Shown: positions 13,221-55,327 of the stretch, in pieces
Numbering within the stretch: the stretch's first letter is position 1
Layout of the letters: each line of letters begins with the position of its first letter
Virus record (IMG/VR): IMGVR_UViG_3300037541_000696
Location: 1-64,000 of that record
DNA from: a virus
Reading direction: 5' to 3' (one strand)
Length of the DNA: 64,000 nucleotides
The notes under the pieces: model-generated
The model's database searches: none
Told to the model about the DNA's origin: nothing
What the model saw: the letters and a program-made list of their open reading frames with translations, nothing else
Position numbers and translations under genes: made by a program

Positions 13221-14306
13221 CTACTGCTGCCTAATCTGAACTGGCATAATCAAAAATAGATCATCACTTTCTCCGTCTGTTAAAACTGCAGGAGTGGTCT
13301 CCGTATTCATGCTTAATATAATTTTTTCACTATTCAATCCCTTAAGCGCGTCGGTCAGGTATCGCGCATTAAAGGCGATCACTATATCGTCTCCGCCAAA
13401 TTCAACCGGCAAGGACTCTGATGCCTTGCTGCCTTCGGCATCGGCGTTGATCCTGAGCAGCTGATCACTGCTGCTAAAAGATAGTCTAACCATGTTATTT
13501 GTGATAGCAGCAACAGTAGATACTCTACTGACTGCCGCAATTAACGATTTGCGATCAATTGTCGCAGTCCTTTTAAAATTTGGCGGAATTAACTGTTCGT
13601 AGTCTGGAAATGTTGACGCAAATGTGCTTGTTACGATTTGAATGTTTCCGGTCTCAATAAGTAACTGAGTCTTGGCTTGAGTCAACGCAATATCTTCTGC
13701 AGATAGTTTGATGGCTTCAGCCAGGGATGCGGCTGGAATAGTTAAGTCAATATCATGCCCTGCCGCATCGAATGCTGCCACACCTAGCCTATGGCCATCT
13801 GTTGCGGCGCACTTAATTGTGTTGCCTTTTCCTCTGATATTGACACCCATTAGTTGCTGCTTAGCTTCGTCAAGTGAAGCGCAAGTGCTGACGGCTTTCG
13901 CAGCGCGTGCAAAACTTGATGGTAGCACTGTGCTAGTGCCACTAATTGTAGGAAAATCAGGAAAATCTTCTGGATTTGCTGTGCTCAACTCATAACTTCC
14001 TGATGTAGATGTGATAATCATCGTTTCACCGACGACATTTAGTGATAATGGACCATCGGAGGGTAGCTTGGACGTTATCTCAGTGAGGATTCGATAGGGT
14101 GTTGCGGTGATTCCTGTTGTCGCAACTGAAGCAGGAATTGTCACTCTAATTCCAAGTGACAAATCATACCCCGTGACGCGAACTGAGTTATCAAACGCCT
14201 CCACAAGGACGTTAATCATGATCGGGTGAGCCGGGCGATTTGGCACGGCTTTGGCGATGGAATGCAACGCCTGAGCGAACTCAGACTGAGAGAGAACGAC
14301 TTCCAT
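13221..14306 (-). CDS. dnaN: DNA polymerase III beta subunit (sliding clamp)
   Basis: 361 residues, the normal length of a bacterial beta clamp. The N-terminal domain starts EVVLSQSEFAQALHSIAKAV. The middle has AATDGHRLGVAAFDA-type sequence, and the C-terminus has FNARYLTDALKGLNSEKIILSM and ends FLIMPVQI. It forms a dimeric ring that tethers the polymerase. It lies on the minus strand inside the structural region, with a terminator at its end. Two inverted repeats lie upstream. No phage polymerase is visible here, so it may serve one outside the window or the host enzyme. Confidence 0.92.
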   Translation of the reverse strand: MEVVLSQSEFAQALHSIAKAVPNRPAHPIMINVLVEAFDNSVRVTGYDLSLGIRVTIPASVATTGITATPYRILTEITSKLPSDGPLSLNVVGETMIITSTSGSYELSTANPEDFPDFPTISGTSTVLPSSFARAAKAVSTCASLDEAKQQLMGVNIRGKGNTIKCAATDGHRLGVAAFDAAGHDIDLTIPAASLAEAIKLSAEDIALTQAKTQLLIETGNIQIVTSTFASTFPDYEQLIPPNFKRTATIDRKSLIAAVSRVSTVAAITNNMVRLSFSSSDQLLRINADAEGSKASESLPVEFGGDDIVIAFNARYLTDALKGLNSEKIILSMNTETTPAVLTDGESDDLFLIMPVQIRQQ

Positions 14307-43856: not shown

Positions 43857-44837
43857 TTAGTTCACTCCACAAAGTTGGAGGGCGCTTTCCCTGGCTCGAT
43901 CTACCACGCGGGATCCTTGGCCCCAGGTGGCGGACTGAAACCGCGTGGAAAGTGTGCCATCACGCAGGCTTGTCTCCACCTCTGTAACAGCATTGTAGCC
44001 GCCCCAAACGGTGCCTGACACGCCATCAATATGCGCACCATATCCGCCAACGTAGGCGTTACGAAGTTTCTCCCATTTCCGAGGGGAATCTTCAATTGTG
44101 CCGTGGCGAATGCCTTCAGGGGTTGTCACAGAAGGCATGTTGTAGAGATGACCAAGCCAGATCTTGTAACCTTCAAAATCCATAGGCGTTTCTGCCATGC
44201 GCTTGTACTCTTCAACGTGCTTTCCAAATGTTTGGCGGGCAACGTCTATATTTTTCAGAATTTCATCAATCTGCGCAATGCCGATTTTAGTATGATTGAT
44301 TGAAAATTGTTTACCTGTGCGGGCGCCATCTTTTTGGGCAAAACCTAGAGTATTCATACAGACAACACGAATGTCTGTATAAATACCTCCAAAACTTGTC
44401 ATGCCATCATGGCCAAGATAGCCGACAAAATTACGATGGATTTTATCACCTTCAACGATACTTGCATCAGTACCAAGAATCTTACCTGTAAATGCAACTT
44501 TGGCACCTTTCTTGAGCACAACAACCGTATCCATGATAATGTCATCACGAAGCATTTCTGCGAGTTGACATAAAATTTCGTTCTGGATCAATTCGTACTG
44601 CGGAGAAACGGTGCCAAGAACAACACCATTATCAGAGCGACAAACAGCAACGCGTTGATCAATTTGCTGATAGTCGTCTTCATTTTTGACAAACAGCGGG
44701 CGCTTTTCGACTTCAAACAATGCGCCAGCACGAGTGAAGGCCTCGCGAGCCGGCAACGTGCCTTCGATGACTTCGCCGAGGCTGTGCCAGGCACGTTTGC
44801 CGTTCATCATGATGCCAGAGTGAAAGTTGTGAGCCAT
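43857..44837 (-). CDS. DUF932 domain protein
   Basis: 326 residues. Typical family features: AWHSLGEVIEGTLPAREAF near residue 16, then RPLFVKNEDDYQ, VSPQYELIQNEILCQLAEML, YTDIRVVCMNTLGFA and a closing GTVWGGYNAVTEVE. DUF932 proteins are common on phages and plasmids. Their biochemical role is not settled. It has a full early promoter and leader hairpin and is long and well conserved in style. Confidence 0.85.
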   Translation of the reverse strand: MAHNFHSGIMMNGKRAWHSLGEVIEGTLPAREAFTRAGALFEVEKRPLFVKNEDDYQQIDQRVAVCRSDNGVVLGTVSPQYELIQNEILCQLAEMLRDDIIMDTVVVLKKGAKVAFTGKILGTDASIVEGDKIHRNFVGYLGHDGMTSFGGIYTDIRVVCMNTLGFAQKDGARTGKQFSINHTKIGIAQIDEILKNIDVARQTFGKHVEEYKRMAETPMDFEGYKIWLGHLYNMPSVTTPEGIRHGTIEDSPRKWEKLRNAYVGGYGAHIDGVSGTVWGGYNAVTEVETSLRDGTLSTRFQSATWGQGSRVVDRARESALQLCGVN

Positions 44838-47580: not shown

Positions 47581-47586
47581 GCGTGA

Positions 47587-47592
47587 TATAAT
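47587..47592 (+). promoter_or_regulatory. TATAAT -10 box for thyX
   Basis: Perfect consensus, 6 nt before the first paired base of the structured leader. The upstream repeats of the early class were not recognised here. Confidence 0.55.
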
Positions 47593-47598
47593 GAAGTG

Positions 47599-47702
47599 GT
47601 GGGACGGAGTGCGAATCCCCGACGGTCGCCCTAGGCCGGCGAATGAGAGGTTCGACTCCTCGCGGTCCACTGCGGGTCGCACGACTGGCGCTTTCGTCCC
47701 AC
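47599..47702 (+). ncRNA. Structured 5' leader of thyX (candidate cis-regulatory RNA)
   Basis: An 11-bp closing helix joins 47599-47609 to 47692-47702 (GTGGGAC with GTCCCAC plus four more pairs, two G-T). Inside are a TCGCC/GGCGA hairpin (47622-47641), a GAGG/CCTC hairpin with a tRNA-T-loop-like TTCGACT loop, and further pairing potential. It ends 19 nt before the ATG. It is not a standard tRNA and not recognised as a known riboswitch. Confidence 0.5.
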
Positions 47703-47721: not shown

Positions 47722-49440
47722 ATGGATCCACTTTTTCGCGTTGAAGTCATCGCGCAAACGCCTAATCCTCAGCAATGCATGTACGCTGCAATGCATCAGG
47801 ATTACAGTGAAGGTTTTGTGTATGATGAGCGTGATAAATGGCCGGATGAAACTAAAGCTGGGGAGATCTGTGTAAATAGACTATTGAAAGGAGAACGTGG
47901 GCACTATGGGTGCTATTCAAGTGATACTGAAGTTTTAACTTCTGAGGGTTGGCTCGATTGGCCTAGTGTTACCGCGTCATCTATGCTTGCAGCAGTCGAT
48001 ATTCATACTAATCTAATTTCATTTGAAAAACCTACAGCGCTTCAAAAAGTACAACTTAATGCGGGCGACAAGCTTTATAGTCTTGTTAGTCAAAAGCTAG
48101 ATATATTAGTAACACTTGATCACCGTATGGTAATAACTACAAAAAAACAAGGAAACAATTGGACTGAGCCGTTTTTTGCTTCCGCCAGTGAGGTGGCGGG
48201 CAGGGCTGTTCGCTATAGGCTTGCTGGTAAACTAAAAACACGACATGTTCCTTCGCATTGCCCAAGCGGAGTTGACTTGGTTTCATTGTTTAAGCTTGCA
48301 GGGTTTTTCTATGGTGACGGATGCAGGTCTAACAATATAAATCCAGGATGTCTTCGCTTTCGCCTCAGAAGGGCGAGAAAAATAGCTTATCTCAAAAGTC
48401 TAGGCTTTCATATTGATCAAATGCAGTCTGATAGATTCACGTTAAGAGAAAAAGAAGTGTCTCAATGGGTGCATAAATACTTTACTCATGAAAACGGTAA
48501 GGCGATACCTTCATTTATCATGCATTTACCTAGCGGTCTTTTTGATGCTTTTGCAGATGGATTAAAAAACAGCGATGGGACACTATCAAATGATACATGG
48601 TGTTTTGATTCAAAAGAAAAAAAATCTCTTGATATTTTGCAAGCCGCTTTTCATCTTAATGATAAGCTTGCGTCTTTTTCTTTAAATAATCCAAACGAAG
48701 GAGTTGGGCATGAAAATCATGCTCCTTGCTGGAGGATATATATTTCATCACGCGAGCCATACGCCAGAAGCGAAGTTAATCAAAAAGGAAGAACCCGTGG
48801 ATCAGAGCAGTTAATAAATTATCAAGGGTATGTTTACTGTGCAACTATTTCCACAGGCGCTTTACTCGTAAGGCGAAACAATAAGCCATTTATTTCTGGA
48901 AACTGTTTAGAACATCCACAAATTATCCTTAACTGCGGACACTTTCCGCACTCCGTGATGCAACAAGCTCGGACACACAGAGTAGGCGTGAGTATGGATT
49001 GTCAGTCAATGCGCTATACCGGTGATCGCATTTGCAAAGCCGCCAACGGTGAATTGCCTCTTGAAGAAGTATTCTACTTGCGTCCATTAGGTCATTATAC
49101 CGACCGTCAAGGCAAAAAATATGAATACACCAGTAATCATCGCGCAAAAGATCTTTGGCTTTGCAAATTTGCCGCTGAACGCTATCGCGATCTTCTGTCG
49201 CAAGGTTTTGCTGAAGAACACGCACGCGGAATCCTTCCTTTTGATTATAGGCAACATTTTGTAGTCAGCTTTAACGCAAGGTCATTTATGCACTTCCTAG
49301 ACCTACGCGCAAAGCTTGATGCTCAGCTAGAGATCCGTCAGCTATGTGACTTAATGTGGCCGCACTTTAAGGCTTGGGTGCCGCAGATTGCGGAATGGTA
49401 TGAACAGGCCAGGCTGCATAAGGCACGGTTGGCGCCATAG
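47722..49440 (+). CDS. thyX: Flavin-dependent thymidylate synthase with intein
   Basis: 572 codons. The mature enzyme is residues 1-63 plus 395-572 (241 aa). ThyX makes dTMP from dUMP using methylene-tetrahydrofolate and FAD. Its signature is split as GERGHYG before the intein and, after it, QQARTHRVGVSMDCQSMRYT. The intein interrupts the conserved GH..(L)EH substrate-binding segment, a site where a precise splice is essential. It is upstream of no other metabolic gene, but Tmk and NrdJ occur later, giving a dTTP pathway. Confidence 0.9.
   Translation: MDPLFRVEVIAQTPNPQQCMYAAMHQDYSEGFVYDERDKWPDETKAGEICVNRLLKGERGHYGCYSSDTEVLTSEGWLDWPSVTASSMLAAVDIHTNLISFEKPTALQKVQLNAGDKLYSLVSQKLDILVTLDHRMVITTKKQGNNWTEPFFASASEVAGRAVRYRLAGKLKTRHVPSHCPSGVDLVSLFKLAGFFYGDGCRSNNINPGCLRFRLRRARKIAYLKSLGFHIDQMQSDRFTLREKEVSQWVHKYFTHENGKAIPSFIMHLPSGLFDAFADGLKNSDGTLSNDTWCFDSKEKKSLDILQAAFHLNDKLASFSLNNPNEGVGHENHAPCWRIYISSREPYARSEVNQKGRTRGSEQLINYQGYVYCATISTGALLVRRNNKPFISGNCLEHPQIILNCGHFPHSVMQQARTHRVGVSMDCQSMRYTGDRICKAANGELPLEEVFYLRPLGHYTDRQGKKYEYTSNHRAKDLWLCKFAAERYRDLLSQGFAEEHARGILPFDYRQHFVVSFNARSFMHFLDLRAKLDAQLEIRQLCDLMWPHFKAWVPQIAEWYEQARLHKARLAP
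47911..48903 (+). other. Intein with LAGLIDADG homing endonuclease (331 aa)
   Basis: Begins at Cys64 (CYSSDTEVLTSEGW, block A). Block B contains TLDH. The two LAGLIDADG-type motifs are LFKLAGFFYGDG and LFDAFADGLKNSDG. Block F is VYCATISTGALLVRRNNKPF and the end is FISGN, followed by Cys+1. The penultimate residue is Gly, not the usual His. Both endonuclease acidic residues are present. Confidence 0.9.
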
Positions 49441-51774: not shown

Positions 51775-51943
51775 TTGCTTTGTTGCGAAGTTTTGTTATG
51801 TTTTTAACAATATGTCTAACCGTGCGCTTGTTTAGCTTGCCAGGTTTTGCGAAGCTTTTGATTGTTCGTGATTGATTGATCAGCGACAATAAAACAGCAA
51901 ACAAACACCAAATACAAATCAAAGCAAAAAATATCGTCGTCAT
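51761..51943 (-). CDS. Small membrane protein, 60 aa
   Basis: N-terminal transmembrane helix (MTTIFFALICIWCLFAVLLS) and a basic tail (KPGKLNKRTVRHIVKNITKL). It overlaps both neighbours. Unknown. Confidence 0.6.
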   Translation of the reverse strand: MTTIFFALICIWCLFAVLLSLINQSRTIKSFAKPGKLNKRTVRHIVKNITKLRNKANDLV

Positions 51944-52815
51944 AATTGTGTACCAAAAGTAAACTTTACATTGCGCTTACGATTGACAATATCTAGCATA
52001 CCTTCCGCCCAAATGTTCTCACCGCCCTTGCCTGCGCGGTAGGACGCCTTGTGCGCCTCGCCGACTAACGCCCTTGCGCCAATTTCTTTTAATCTTTTAT
52101 ACAACCTTTCGTCTGACAGCCCAACGTCAATCTTTCGATTCAATACAGCCAAGCCAAGAAGCAATATATGATGCAAACTTACATCATCAAGAGATGCCAA
52201 TTCACATGCAACTTTAAAAATCTCCCTGAATTTACCTGGATTTTGATTATAGACTCGCTGGCACGCGGCAATGCAAGTTATAGTTCTTGTTGACCCTGTA
52301 TCAGGCCTGATCACAAAACCATTTTCTTGTGCAGCATCTGCAATTTGCCGTGCCGTACTGTCGCCAGCAATCAATAATGCTTTGAATTTAGTGTAAGCAG
52401 ACACTGCTTTTCGATTTGTATTTATTTCTACAAATGCCGTTGCTTCGTGATGGATGCCTTGTGATTCAAATATCATGCAAGGAAGATGAGTAATATCCGA
52501 CCTTTTCCATGCCGCTAATGTTCTATTTTGACCGTCAACAACTACATATTTACCATTCTGTCGCTCCATAACACTAATCGCTCCGCATGATTCCCAGTTC
52601 CATTCCGCTGCAATGCTTAAAATTTTGCTTGAAACAACATCACGCTGATATGACCTATCAACAAACAAAGATCCCTTTGGGATCCACTTGAATGATCCAG
52701 TGTCGCCAAGCGGGCGCCATTTGTATGTTGTTACCTTGTCAAGTAAGGTATTTCCAAATGCAATTGTTTGTTCAAAACTTGAGTCAAACGAAACAATCTC
52801 AGAAGAAATGCTCAT
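51940..52815 (-). CDS. ParB-like nuclease-domain protein
   Basis: 291 residues from 52815 (MSISSEIVSFDSSFEQTIAF). Residues about 45-130 show the ParB/Srx-type pattern: WIPKGSLFVDRSYQRDVVSS, then GAISVMERQNGKYVVVDGQN and RTLAAWKRSDITHLPCMIF. In phages this fold occurs in DNA-binding or nucleotide-hydrolysing proteins. The long C-terminal helical part is specific to this subfamily. It overlaps both neighbours by 4 bases. Confidence 0.68.
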   Translation of the reverse strand: MSISSEIVSFDSSFEQTIAFGNTLLDKVTTYKWRPLGDTGSFKWIPKGSLFVDRSYQRDVVSSKILSIAAEWNWESCGAISVMERQNGKYVVVDGQNRTLAAWKRSDITHLPCMIFESQGIHHEATAFVEINTNRKAVSAYTKFKALLIAGDSTARQIADAAQENGFVIRPDTGSTRTITCIAACQRVYNQNPGKFREIFKVACELASLDDVSLHHILLLGLAVLNRKIDVGLSDERLYKRLKEIGARALVGEAHKASYRAGKGGENIWAEGMLDIVNRKRNVKFTFGTQL

Positions 52816-53411
52816 GGAGCTGTGGCCATGTGTTTCCAAGCCATCCTAGCCAAATTCAACGCGTCAACCCAAGTCTGTAACACTTCGTCACCATTGTGTA
52901 ATTCAACACGGATCTTTTCAGATCCAACCCAAATCACGCTGCACACATCAATCATCACGCCACGATCTGCCAGGGTTGCTACAGCGCCCCCTAGCTCCGC
53001 CCATGGCGCTTCTGGATGGATCCTGGCACCATCAGGCCAAATCGCAAGCAAGCCCAGTCCTTTGCTACCTAAATTTGCTGCAATATCTATTGTAACAGCA
53101 GCTTCATGTTGTGGAATTATTAGATGTATCATTGCGCCTAAAATTTCCATCCTTTCCCATAGCTGATGACTTAACAATGTATCTATCATTGGTCTAACAG
53201 AATTAAATTTAGCGGATGGCTTCCAATTCTTATTTTTTGCGTAATTTATTGCCGCTGCACGTAATAGCTTATTTCTGCCAGAAAAAGACTGATCAATGCC
53301 GTAGCCATCATGAATGATGTTTATTACAGGTTTTAAGACTTTTTCTCCTGCAAGATACAAACCCTCTTCTGGCACGGGTTTTACATCATCGCCATTAAGC
53401 CAATTTACCAT
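52812..53411 (-). CDS. Hypothetical 199-aa protein, replication region
   Basis: MVNWLNGDDVKPVPEEGLYL, then a helical middle (NKLLRAAAINYAKNKNWKPS) and a mixed C-terminus (TIDIAANLGSKGLGLLAIWP). Part of the run of overlapping genes downstream of the replication initiator. No family is recognised. Confidence 0.6.
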   Translation of the reverse strand: MVNWLNGDDVKPVPEEGLYLAGEKVLKPVINIIHDGYGIDQSFSGRNKLLRAAAINYAKNKNWKPSAKFNSVRPMIDTLLSHQLWERMEILGAMIHLIIPQHEAAVTIDIAANLGSKGLGLLAIWPDGARIHPEAPWAELGGAVATLADRGVMIDVCSVIWVGSEKIRVELHNGDEVLQTWVDALNLARMAWKHMATAP

Positions 53412-54136: not shown

Positions 54137-55327
54137 TTAAGAAGGCAACGCGCCACCTAGCGTAGCAAAAAACTCAGCCTCCTCGCGCTTTTGGCGTTCT
54201 TTAAGAAATTTTACCATTTGTGAAGCTTCGTGTGCTTTTTCTAAAACATCTTGACGGCCGTATCTTTGGCGTGCTTTAGGTTGTGATCCACCGCCCATCT
54301 TGATAAAATTGTTTAGAGTAATAGACATCCAACCTTTGCCGTTAATTTTTGCTTTTATTCCAAGGTCACATTGCTCTGATACTGCATCTAAACCACCATT
54401 CACAAAGTCGTTAATTTTTGTTAGTTCTGTGACCAAAAGCTCCCATGCTTGAGGTGTCTTTTTGCCTGCTTTGTGTTGCCAGAATGCTATAATTTTTTCA
54501 GAAACCGGACCAAGCGCCGCAGGAACGTCATCGTTATTAGGGCAAAAAACGGTCGTCCTGGCTTGTGAGGCTCGCTTTTTGACGGGAGCATCAGAAGGGC
54601 CTTCTAGGGGCCTTGGCTGCCCCCATGGTGGTATGGGCTGCTGAGGCTGCTTTTGAACGCCTACAGGGGCTTCCAGGGGCCTCTCAGGAGCTTGTGGCTC
54701 CAGAAATGATGGGTTGCTGATCAGGAAGGTGTTCAAAACGAGGTTTTCCACAGGGTTTTCCACAGGTTGGGGAGAAGGGGCGGTTTTTGGCAGGTCGGGC
54801 GGTGTGTCGCTGACCGCAGGTCGGCGGGGTTGCGCCGAGCCGTGGGGGGGTGTCAAAGGGGGGTTCTGGCTTTCAAGTTTTGTTCTTGTTAAAGGCTTCT
54901 TGTTAGTGTCCCCCCCCATTTGGGGGAGGGGTGGGGTACCCCGTTTGGGGGATCCCCCATTTGGGGGAGGGGTACCCCATTTGGGGGAGGGGTCTACCCG
55001 TGGCCTAATGCGCTCCGCTCTGACGTGGTAAACCGTTGCGGCGCCAGGCCTCTCGTGCCTTTCGATCCATCCCTGATCCACCAAGAACCGCAAGGATCGG
55101 CGAATGTCGTCACCCTTCATGCCGCATTCCTGTTCAAGGGTGGCGATCGTTGGGAACGCCGTATCAGTGGCGCCGGCGTGATGCCAGAGCCATGCGTAGA
55201 CGAAGACCAGCCCCTTTTTGTCCCTTGCGACCGTCAGTAAGTCCAGAGGCACTTGCACAAATGCCGACCGTGCCAACCTGTCGCGAAGACTGCCGTGGTC
55301 GGCTGGCGACGGTTTTGATCGTTTCAT
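54137..55327 (-). CDS. Replication initiator-like protein with winged HTH
   Basis: 396 residues. Residues about 20-110 form a helix-turn-helix_36-type domain: LVFVYAWLWHHAGATDTAFP, then TIATLEQECGMKGDDIRRSL and FLVDQGWIERH. A long Pro-rich linker (about 115-250) is encoded over tandem G/C repeats. The C-terminal part (FWQHKAGKKTPQAWELLVTE, KINGKGWMSITLNNFIKMGG) resembles phage O-like initiators. It has its own promoter and a leader with a short upstream frame. Confidence 0.72.
   Translation of the reverse strand: MKRSKPSPADHGSLRDRLARSAFVQVPLDLLTVARDKKGLVFVYAWLWHHAGATDTAFPTIATLEQECGMKGDDIRRSLRFLVDQGWIERHERPGAATVYHVRAERIRPRVDPSPKWGTPPPNGGSPKRGTPPLPQMGGDTNKKPLTRTKLESQNPPLTPPHGSAQPRRPAVSDTPPDLPKTAPSPQPVENPVENLVLNTFLISNPSFLEPQAPERPLEAPVGVQKQPQQPIPPWGQPRPLEGPSDAPVKKRASQARTTVFCPNNDDVPAALGPVSEKIIAFWQHKAGKKTPQAWELLVTELTKINDFVNGGLDAVSEQCDLGIKAKINGKGWMSITLNNFIKMGGGSQPKARQRYGRQDVLEKAHEASQMVKFLKERQKREEAEFFATLGGALPS
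54914..54993 (-). repeat. Iteron-like repeats in the initiator gene (candidate origin)
   Basis: Four copies of a 19-bp unit: CCCCATTTGGGGGAGGGGT at 54914-54932, 54955-54973 and 54975-54993, and a shorter CCCCGTTTGGGGGAT at 54939-54953. Each contains a CCCC-TTT-GGGG palindrome-like core. They encode only the Pro/Gly linker. The arrangement recalls the lambda origin inside gene O. Confidence 0.65.

Follow-up and report, generated by a model that had tools for sequence, protein, structure and literature searches.

A large structured leader in front of a viral thyX gene, with a possible role in protecting the 5' end of an early mRNA

The thyX gene of the virus studied here is preceded by a 104-nt element (positions 47,599 to 47,702), which could well be a 5'-terminal structure that protects or tunes an early mRNA in the manner of bacterial 5' stem-loops. 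Weighing all of the evidence, we hold this reading tentatively, at somewhat less than an even chance; for such a structure, the leader is unusually large. The best clue to its function is given by the hairpins which occupy the same slot at other early genes.

All positions refer to the window, a stretch of 64,000 nt that is part of a 78,499-base IMG/VR virus record, unless another sequence is named. The ThyX protein of the window is 60-90% identical to that of many viral contigs and about 80% identical to ThyX of freshwater Synechococcus and Cyanobium, and the closest named phages are Synechococcus phages; from these similarities we infer that the virus is a phage of picocyanobacteria. It has many proteins in common with three related phages (G001, G002, G003) and with the more distant G004; the former three are nearer to the window by ThyX identity (88-90%). 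The gene thyX (Thy1, PF02511; 47722..49440, plus strand) contains an in-frame, intein-like insert at about residues 64-395 (47911-48904), which begins at GHYG/CYSSDTEV, finishes at ISGN/C, contains the string LFKLAGFFYGDG similar to a homing-endonuclease motif, and is missing from host and phage ThyX homologues, those of G002-G004 included. The same phage encodes a thymidylate kinase and a class II (B12-dependent) ribonucleotide reductase. The latter (62787-66179 in G000) is about 1 kb longer than the versions of G002 and G004 and aligns to them in two pieces, which is why its extra segment is probably a second intein. Further genes of the window, all on the minus strand, are those of a DNA polymerase III beta clamp (13221-14306), a ParB-like protein (51940-52839), and a DUF932 protein (43857-44837).

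Promoter and predicted fold of the leader

The placement given in the original prediction was confirmed: TATAAT (47587-47592) is followed by six bases, the element, 19 bases, and the ATG at 47722. The -10 element is of the extended type (TGATATAAT, 47584..47592, plus strand); therefore, the predicted +1 falls exactly on 47599, the first paired base of the closing helix, this start being predicted and not mapped. An extended -10 is also found upstream of thyX in G004 (TGCTACAAT) and in G001-G003 (TGTTACAAT). A TTGTTAC box is not clear in front of the window gene, neither a Shine-Dalgarno sequence before the ATG nor a terminator is visible, and the 19-nt stretch ahead of the ATG is unpaired in the predicted fold.

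For 47599-47702, a fold of -46.5 kcal/mol was predicted, in which the proposed 11-bp closing helix is present with a pair probability of about 1.0, as are the inner hairpins. The helix is formed by the strands GUGGGACGGAG (47599..47609) and UUUCGUCCCAC (47692..47702), both listed, like all segments below, for the plus strand. The total stability is ordinary: the z-value is -1.26, a stability reached or exceeded by 28 of 200 shuffles, and -1.43 if the leader is extended to the ATG. A helix of 11 bp from the first base onwards occurred in only 0.3% of dinucleotide shuffles (3 in 1000), and the 5'-terminal helix is the sole part of the fold beyond chance.

Between the closing strands lie segment T1 (GGAGTGCGAATCC, 47606..47618), inner hairpin A (47620..47641, core CGGUC-GCCCUA-GGCCG), segment T2 (GGTTCGACTCC, 47649..47659), a 7-bp hairpin 2 (47662..47680, GCGGUCC-ACUGC-GGGUCGC), and a conserved box (GCACGACTGGCGCT, 47679..47692). 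Two inner arrangements compete. In the minimum-energy fold (-46.5), T1 pairs with the box (47681-47692) and T2 forms a T-arm-like hairpin (47647-47661); in the alternative (-42.7), T2 is the 3' strand of a long T1:T2 helix. The two folds are predicted to follow one another as transcription proceeds. Concerning the T-loop-like feature proposed earlier, the sequence TTCGACT is indeed present, but the probability of its hairpin is only 0.17; these bases have an alternative partner in 47606-47618 (11 pairs with two bulges), which makes the T-loop doubtful. A tandem duplication of the T-loop unit was considered and rejected, since T1 fits the reverse complement of T2 (11/13) better than T2 itself.

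A shorter homologue and its covariation

Among 80 thyX loci of viral contigs, one further leader is alike: G004 carries a shorter homologue in the corresponding position. There, TACAAT is followed by six bases, a 60-base element, a short stretch, and ATGGAT. Identical between the two phages are GGTTCGACTCC (11 bases) and GCACGACTGGCGCT (14 bases), and the 7-bp hairpin between them is kept; T1 and hairpin A are absent from G004, so that the window leader has about 45 extra bases. Hairpin 2 of G004 shows one double change from G-C to A-U, one one-sided change, and a broken top pair; the T2 hairpin shows one double change. For the closing helix, a structure-guided alignment gave two double changes, one single pair-keeping change, and one broken pair. 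Altogether, 13 changes leave 17 of 19 pairs intact, with four pairs altered on both sides, which has a P of about 0.001 if the same number of changes is placed randomly; this value refers to a sample of two sequences, whose closing helices were aligned manually in view of the structure. The covariation in homologous phages named in the original prediction as a check was thus found to some extent, with one phage, and these compensatory changes lend support to the structure without proving it. A conserved reading frame through the leader was discarded, since the distance from one conserved string to the other differs by two bases in the two copies, so that the frame is not kept.

The identical strings raise the question of a protein-binding site for feedback, where ThyX or another phage protein would recognize GGUUCGACUCC and GCACGACUGGCGCU and block or free translation. 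Both strings are invariant, unlike the stems and flanks, and thyX and a thymidylate kinase occur in the same phage. Moreover, human thymidylate synthase, an enzyme of the ThyA type without relation to ThyX, binds to its own mRNA, where it stabilizes a hairpin sequestering the start codon (PMC4274661). However, ThyX is unrelated to ThyA, the predicted structure stops 19 nt before the ATG and masks no Shine-Dalgarno sequence, and relatives with 88-90% identical ThyX lack the element. Taken together, we consider such a site unlikely, albeit with a chance worth keeping in mind.

The same weight is given to a leader without any function of its own, that is, a GC-rich stretch with a chance fold kept by descent in two related phages. 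The z-values (-1.3 to -1.4 in the window, near 0 in G004), the number of only two sequences, and the phages G001-G003 without the element are in line with this unlikely case; on the other hand, the flanks have strongly diverged between the two phages while strings and pairs were kept, the first base of the helix coincides with the predicted +1, and this slot often carries hairpins.

In the phages G001-G003, an extended -10 precedes thyX at the corresponding place, but no such structure follows it. Because these closer relatives keep thyX behind a similar promoter without the element, the latter appears to be dispensable for thyX expression in general; judged by its distribution, it is probably old in the group and was lost in G001-G003, or it was exchanged. 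No third copy was found by pattern scans of viral contigs and bacterial genomes, by a two-sequence covariance model (R1), or by BLAST. R1 recovered only the two known copies from the loci, 40 picocyanobacterial host genomes, and 50 phage records; its best other match (31 bits, in G016) lies on the strand opposite a conserved coding motif of hydroxylase-like type. Of the exact and gapped pattern matches in viral contigs beyond G004, those read in context fell into tRNA genes, into coding sequence, or into unrelated places where the element is absent. A strict pattern scan of genome contigs gave no match, BLAST against phages and plasmids nothing useful, and host thyX leaders have no comparable structure.

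Comparison with RNA families and tRNAs

The leader had been described as no recognizable riboswitch, and this assessment stands: none of the Rfam 15 covariance models scored above its gathering cut-off, and searches of the window, of 701 bases, and of the leaders alone gave chance matches only, both with the gathering threshold and with E values up to 10. A new riboswitch, in which a nucleotide, a folate, a flavin, or another ligand selects between the closing-helix and the T1:T2 fold, would profit from the small difference of 4 kcal/mol between two successive folds that both use the T1 and T2 strands, from the conserved junction sequences, and from the precedent of structured RNAs before metabolic genes in cyanophages (PMC2864571). 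Yet the homologue has no T1, which means that the switch is not conserved; with no Rfam match, only two members, and no visible expression platform, we regard this as improbable. Marginally better, though still quite unlikely, is a combined model: a riboswitch or protein-sensing leader for thymidylate synthesis in which GGUUCGACUCC and GCACGACUGGCGCU would constitute a binding junction at the 5' end, and the switching arm (T1 and hairpin A) would have been gained in the window.

A cobalamin riboswitch (RF00174) was suspected because the string GTGCGAATCC (47609-47618) is reminiscent of its L4 loop and the phage carries a B12-dependent reductase; host genomes carry cobalamin riboswitches. The candidate was rejected, as RF00174, searched at E values up to 10, matched none of 18 phage records, and the leader has none of the core strings GGGGAAAG, CTGTCCCGCAGCTGTGA, and AGTCAGAACGCCCGCC that the host copies contain.

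The idea of a tRNA mimic or a decayed tRNA gene, caught between promoter and thyX, was not supported. It can point to the T-arm-like GGTTCGACTCC, to a 5' strand pairing at 7 of 8 positions with CGGUCCAC (47663-47670), and to the best Rfam match, which is tRNA-Sec over 47599-47670 (E 1.9). But the score of this match, 14.1 bits, is far below the cut-off of 47. Neither ARAGORN at default settings nor RF00005 recognized a complete cloverleaf, and ARAGORN's default search found no tRNA in the leader; a 'tRNA-Ala' reported at the 80% threshold is one of 122 such matches in the window, which is the background rate. Furthermore, the homologue in G004 does not resemble a tRNA and lacks the 5' half, the covarying hairpin after T2 is no acceptor stem, and the conserved box belongs to no part of a tRNA. 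A tRNA origin or mimicry is consequently hardly probable; among the papers searched, none dealt with tRNA-like phage leaders. Elsewhere, in two tRNA-rich viral contigs (L105, 1357-1420; L129, 6576-6640), a tRNA is followed by GCACGACTGG..GGGTTGATATGTCC as a shared trailer.

The order of GGTTCGACTCC and an acceptor-like strand would also fit an attachment site (attP) containing the 3' end of a host tRNA. In 40 picocyanobacterial genomes, however, matches with at most two mismatches were as frequent as for the reversed control, none of the tRNAs among the matches listed ends with the leader sequence, and the acceptor-like part differs between the two phages, which makes an attP very improbable.

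Hairpins at early genes and the proposed role

In agreement with the claim that small hairpins occupy the same slot at other early genes, 14 of 24 candidate promoters with a TTGTTAC box are followed by one, compared to 6.4% of random positions. The candidates were collected from G000, G002, G003, and G004 by searching for a TTGTTAC/T box, then a -10 and an open frame, and a hairpin was accepted if it had at least 6 bp and began within 16 bases after the -10; as relatives and repeats among the 24 are not independent, no P value is given. Many of these hairpins have the core GCAGAGATGC, in which GCA/TGC closes a GAGA tetraloop, and their outer stem bases vary and stay paired nevertheless (GGGGCAGAGATGCCCC, GGAGGCAGAGATGCCTCC, GAAGGCAGAGATGCTTTC, CGAGGCAGAGATGCCTCG). 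Such hairpins were located in the window (42061-42044, minus strand), in G000 (72413-72428 and 72738-72753, locus L089), in G002 (36542, 36899, 45019, 45763, 46173), and in G004 (63261, 64794, 67293, and, on the minus strand, 44065 and 41108), mostly about 9 bases past the -10 and often with CARATTGTTACR upstream. They represent a repeated promoter-leader cassette of early genes; the cassette has no Rfam family. A separate leader, consisting of a 9- to 11-bp hairpin and a second arm, precedes the replication gene at 55327 and is kept in four phages. In the window, this replication-initiator leader (55430-55360, minus strand) has its hairpin directly after TGCTAGAGT, plus GGATGCTCCCGATTCAGTTTTGCCGACTGAAAGGAGC; in G002, the loop reads CGCAAA in place of its reverse complement TTTGCG, which gives the impression of an inverted hairpin.

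In other bacteria, RNase E and RppH require single-stranded 5' ends, hence 5' structures stabilize mRNA (PMC3997798), and a cyanophage is reported to increase the expression of RNase E in its host in the course of infection (PMC9692554). If transcription of thyX begins at 47599, as predicted, the first bases would be tied at once into the closing helix, which should hinder enzymes in need of a single-stranded 5' end, i.e. an RppH-like pyrophosphohydrolase and RNase E. The early message might thus last longer, and translation would proceed from the unpaired 19-nt stretch ahead of the ATG. The two conserved strings may have a role beyond pairing.

We favour this protective role since the helix begins at the predicted +1 and alone exceeds chance, since the G004 homologue retains its pairs at the same slot despite the changes, since start-proximal hairpins with differing yet paired stems are frequent in the phage group, the replication gene of four phages being a case in point, and since there is no Shine-Dalgarno sequence to hide and no visible terminator. 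Against it stands that a cap needs only one helix, such that the 11 and 14 identical bases amid diverged surroundings hint at binding. In addition, G004 has a weak closing helix (7 of 8 positions paired, a result equalled by 34% of shuffles), thyX of G001-G003 does without the structure, and the TTGTTAC box is not clear before the window gene.

To our knowledge, early-gene leaders of cyanophages have been little studied at the RNA level. If start-proximal structures protect messages, they would be a simple answer of phages to RNase E in cyanobacteria, with the thyX leader as its most elaborate example. Should a ligand or a protein bind to the invariant strings, they would constitute a new control point of phage DNA-precursor supply.

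With respect to known systems, the leader shares its T-arm-like sequence with tRNAs and tRNA-like structures, whereas the G004 homologue lacks a D arm, an anticodon arm, and a CCA end, and the scores are far too low. The cyanophage cis-regulatory RNAs manA, wcaG, and PhotoRC-II (PMC2864571) are similar in being structured RNAs before phage metabolic genes, but their covariance models do not match the thyX leader. The hairpins with the GCAGAGATGC core have in common with it the slot after a phage promoter, the early genes, and covarying stems; the thyX leader is several times longer and is devoid of this core. Compared to stem-loops of the ompA/papA type, the leader is larger and branched, contains two invariant strings, and belongs to a phage of a picocyanobacterial host; what it shares with them is a stem within a few bases of the predicted start and an unpaired stretch before the start codon, and perhaps also pairing that is kept over sequence.
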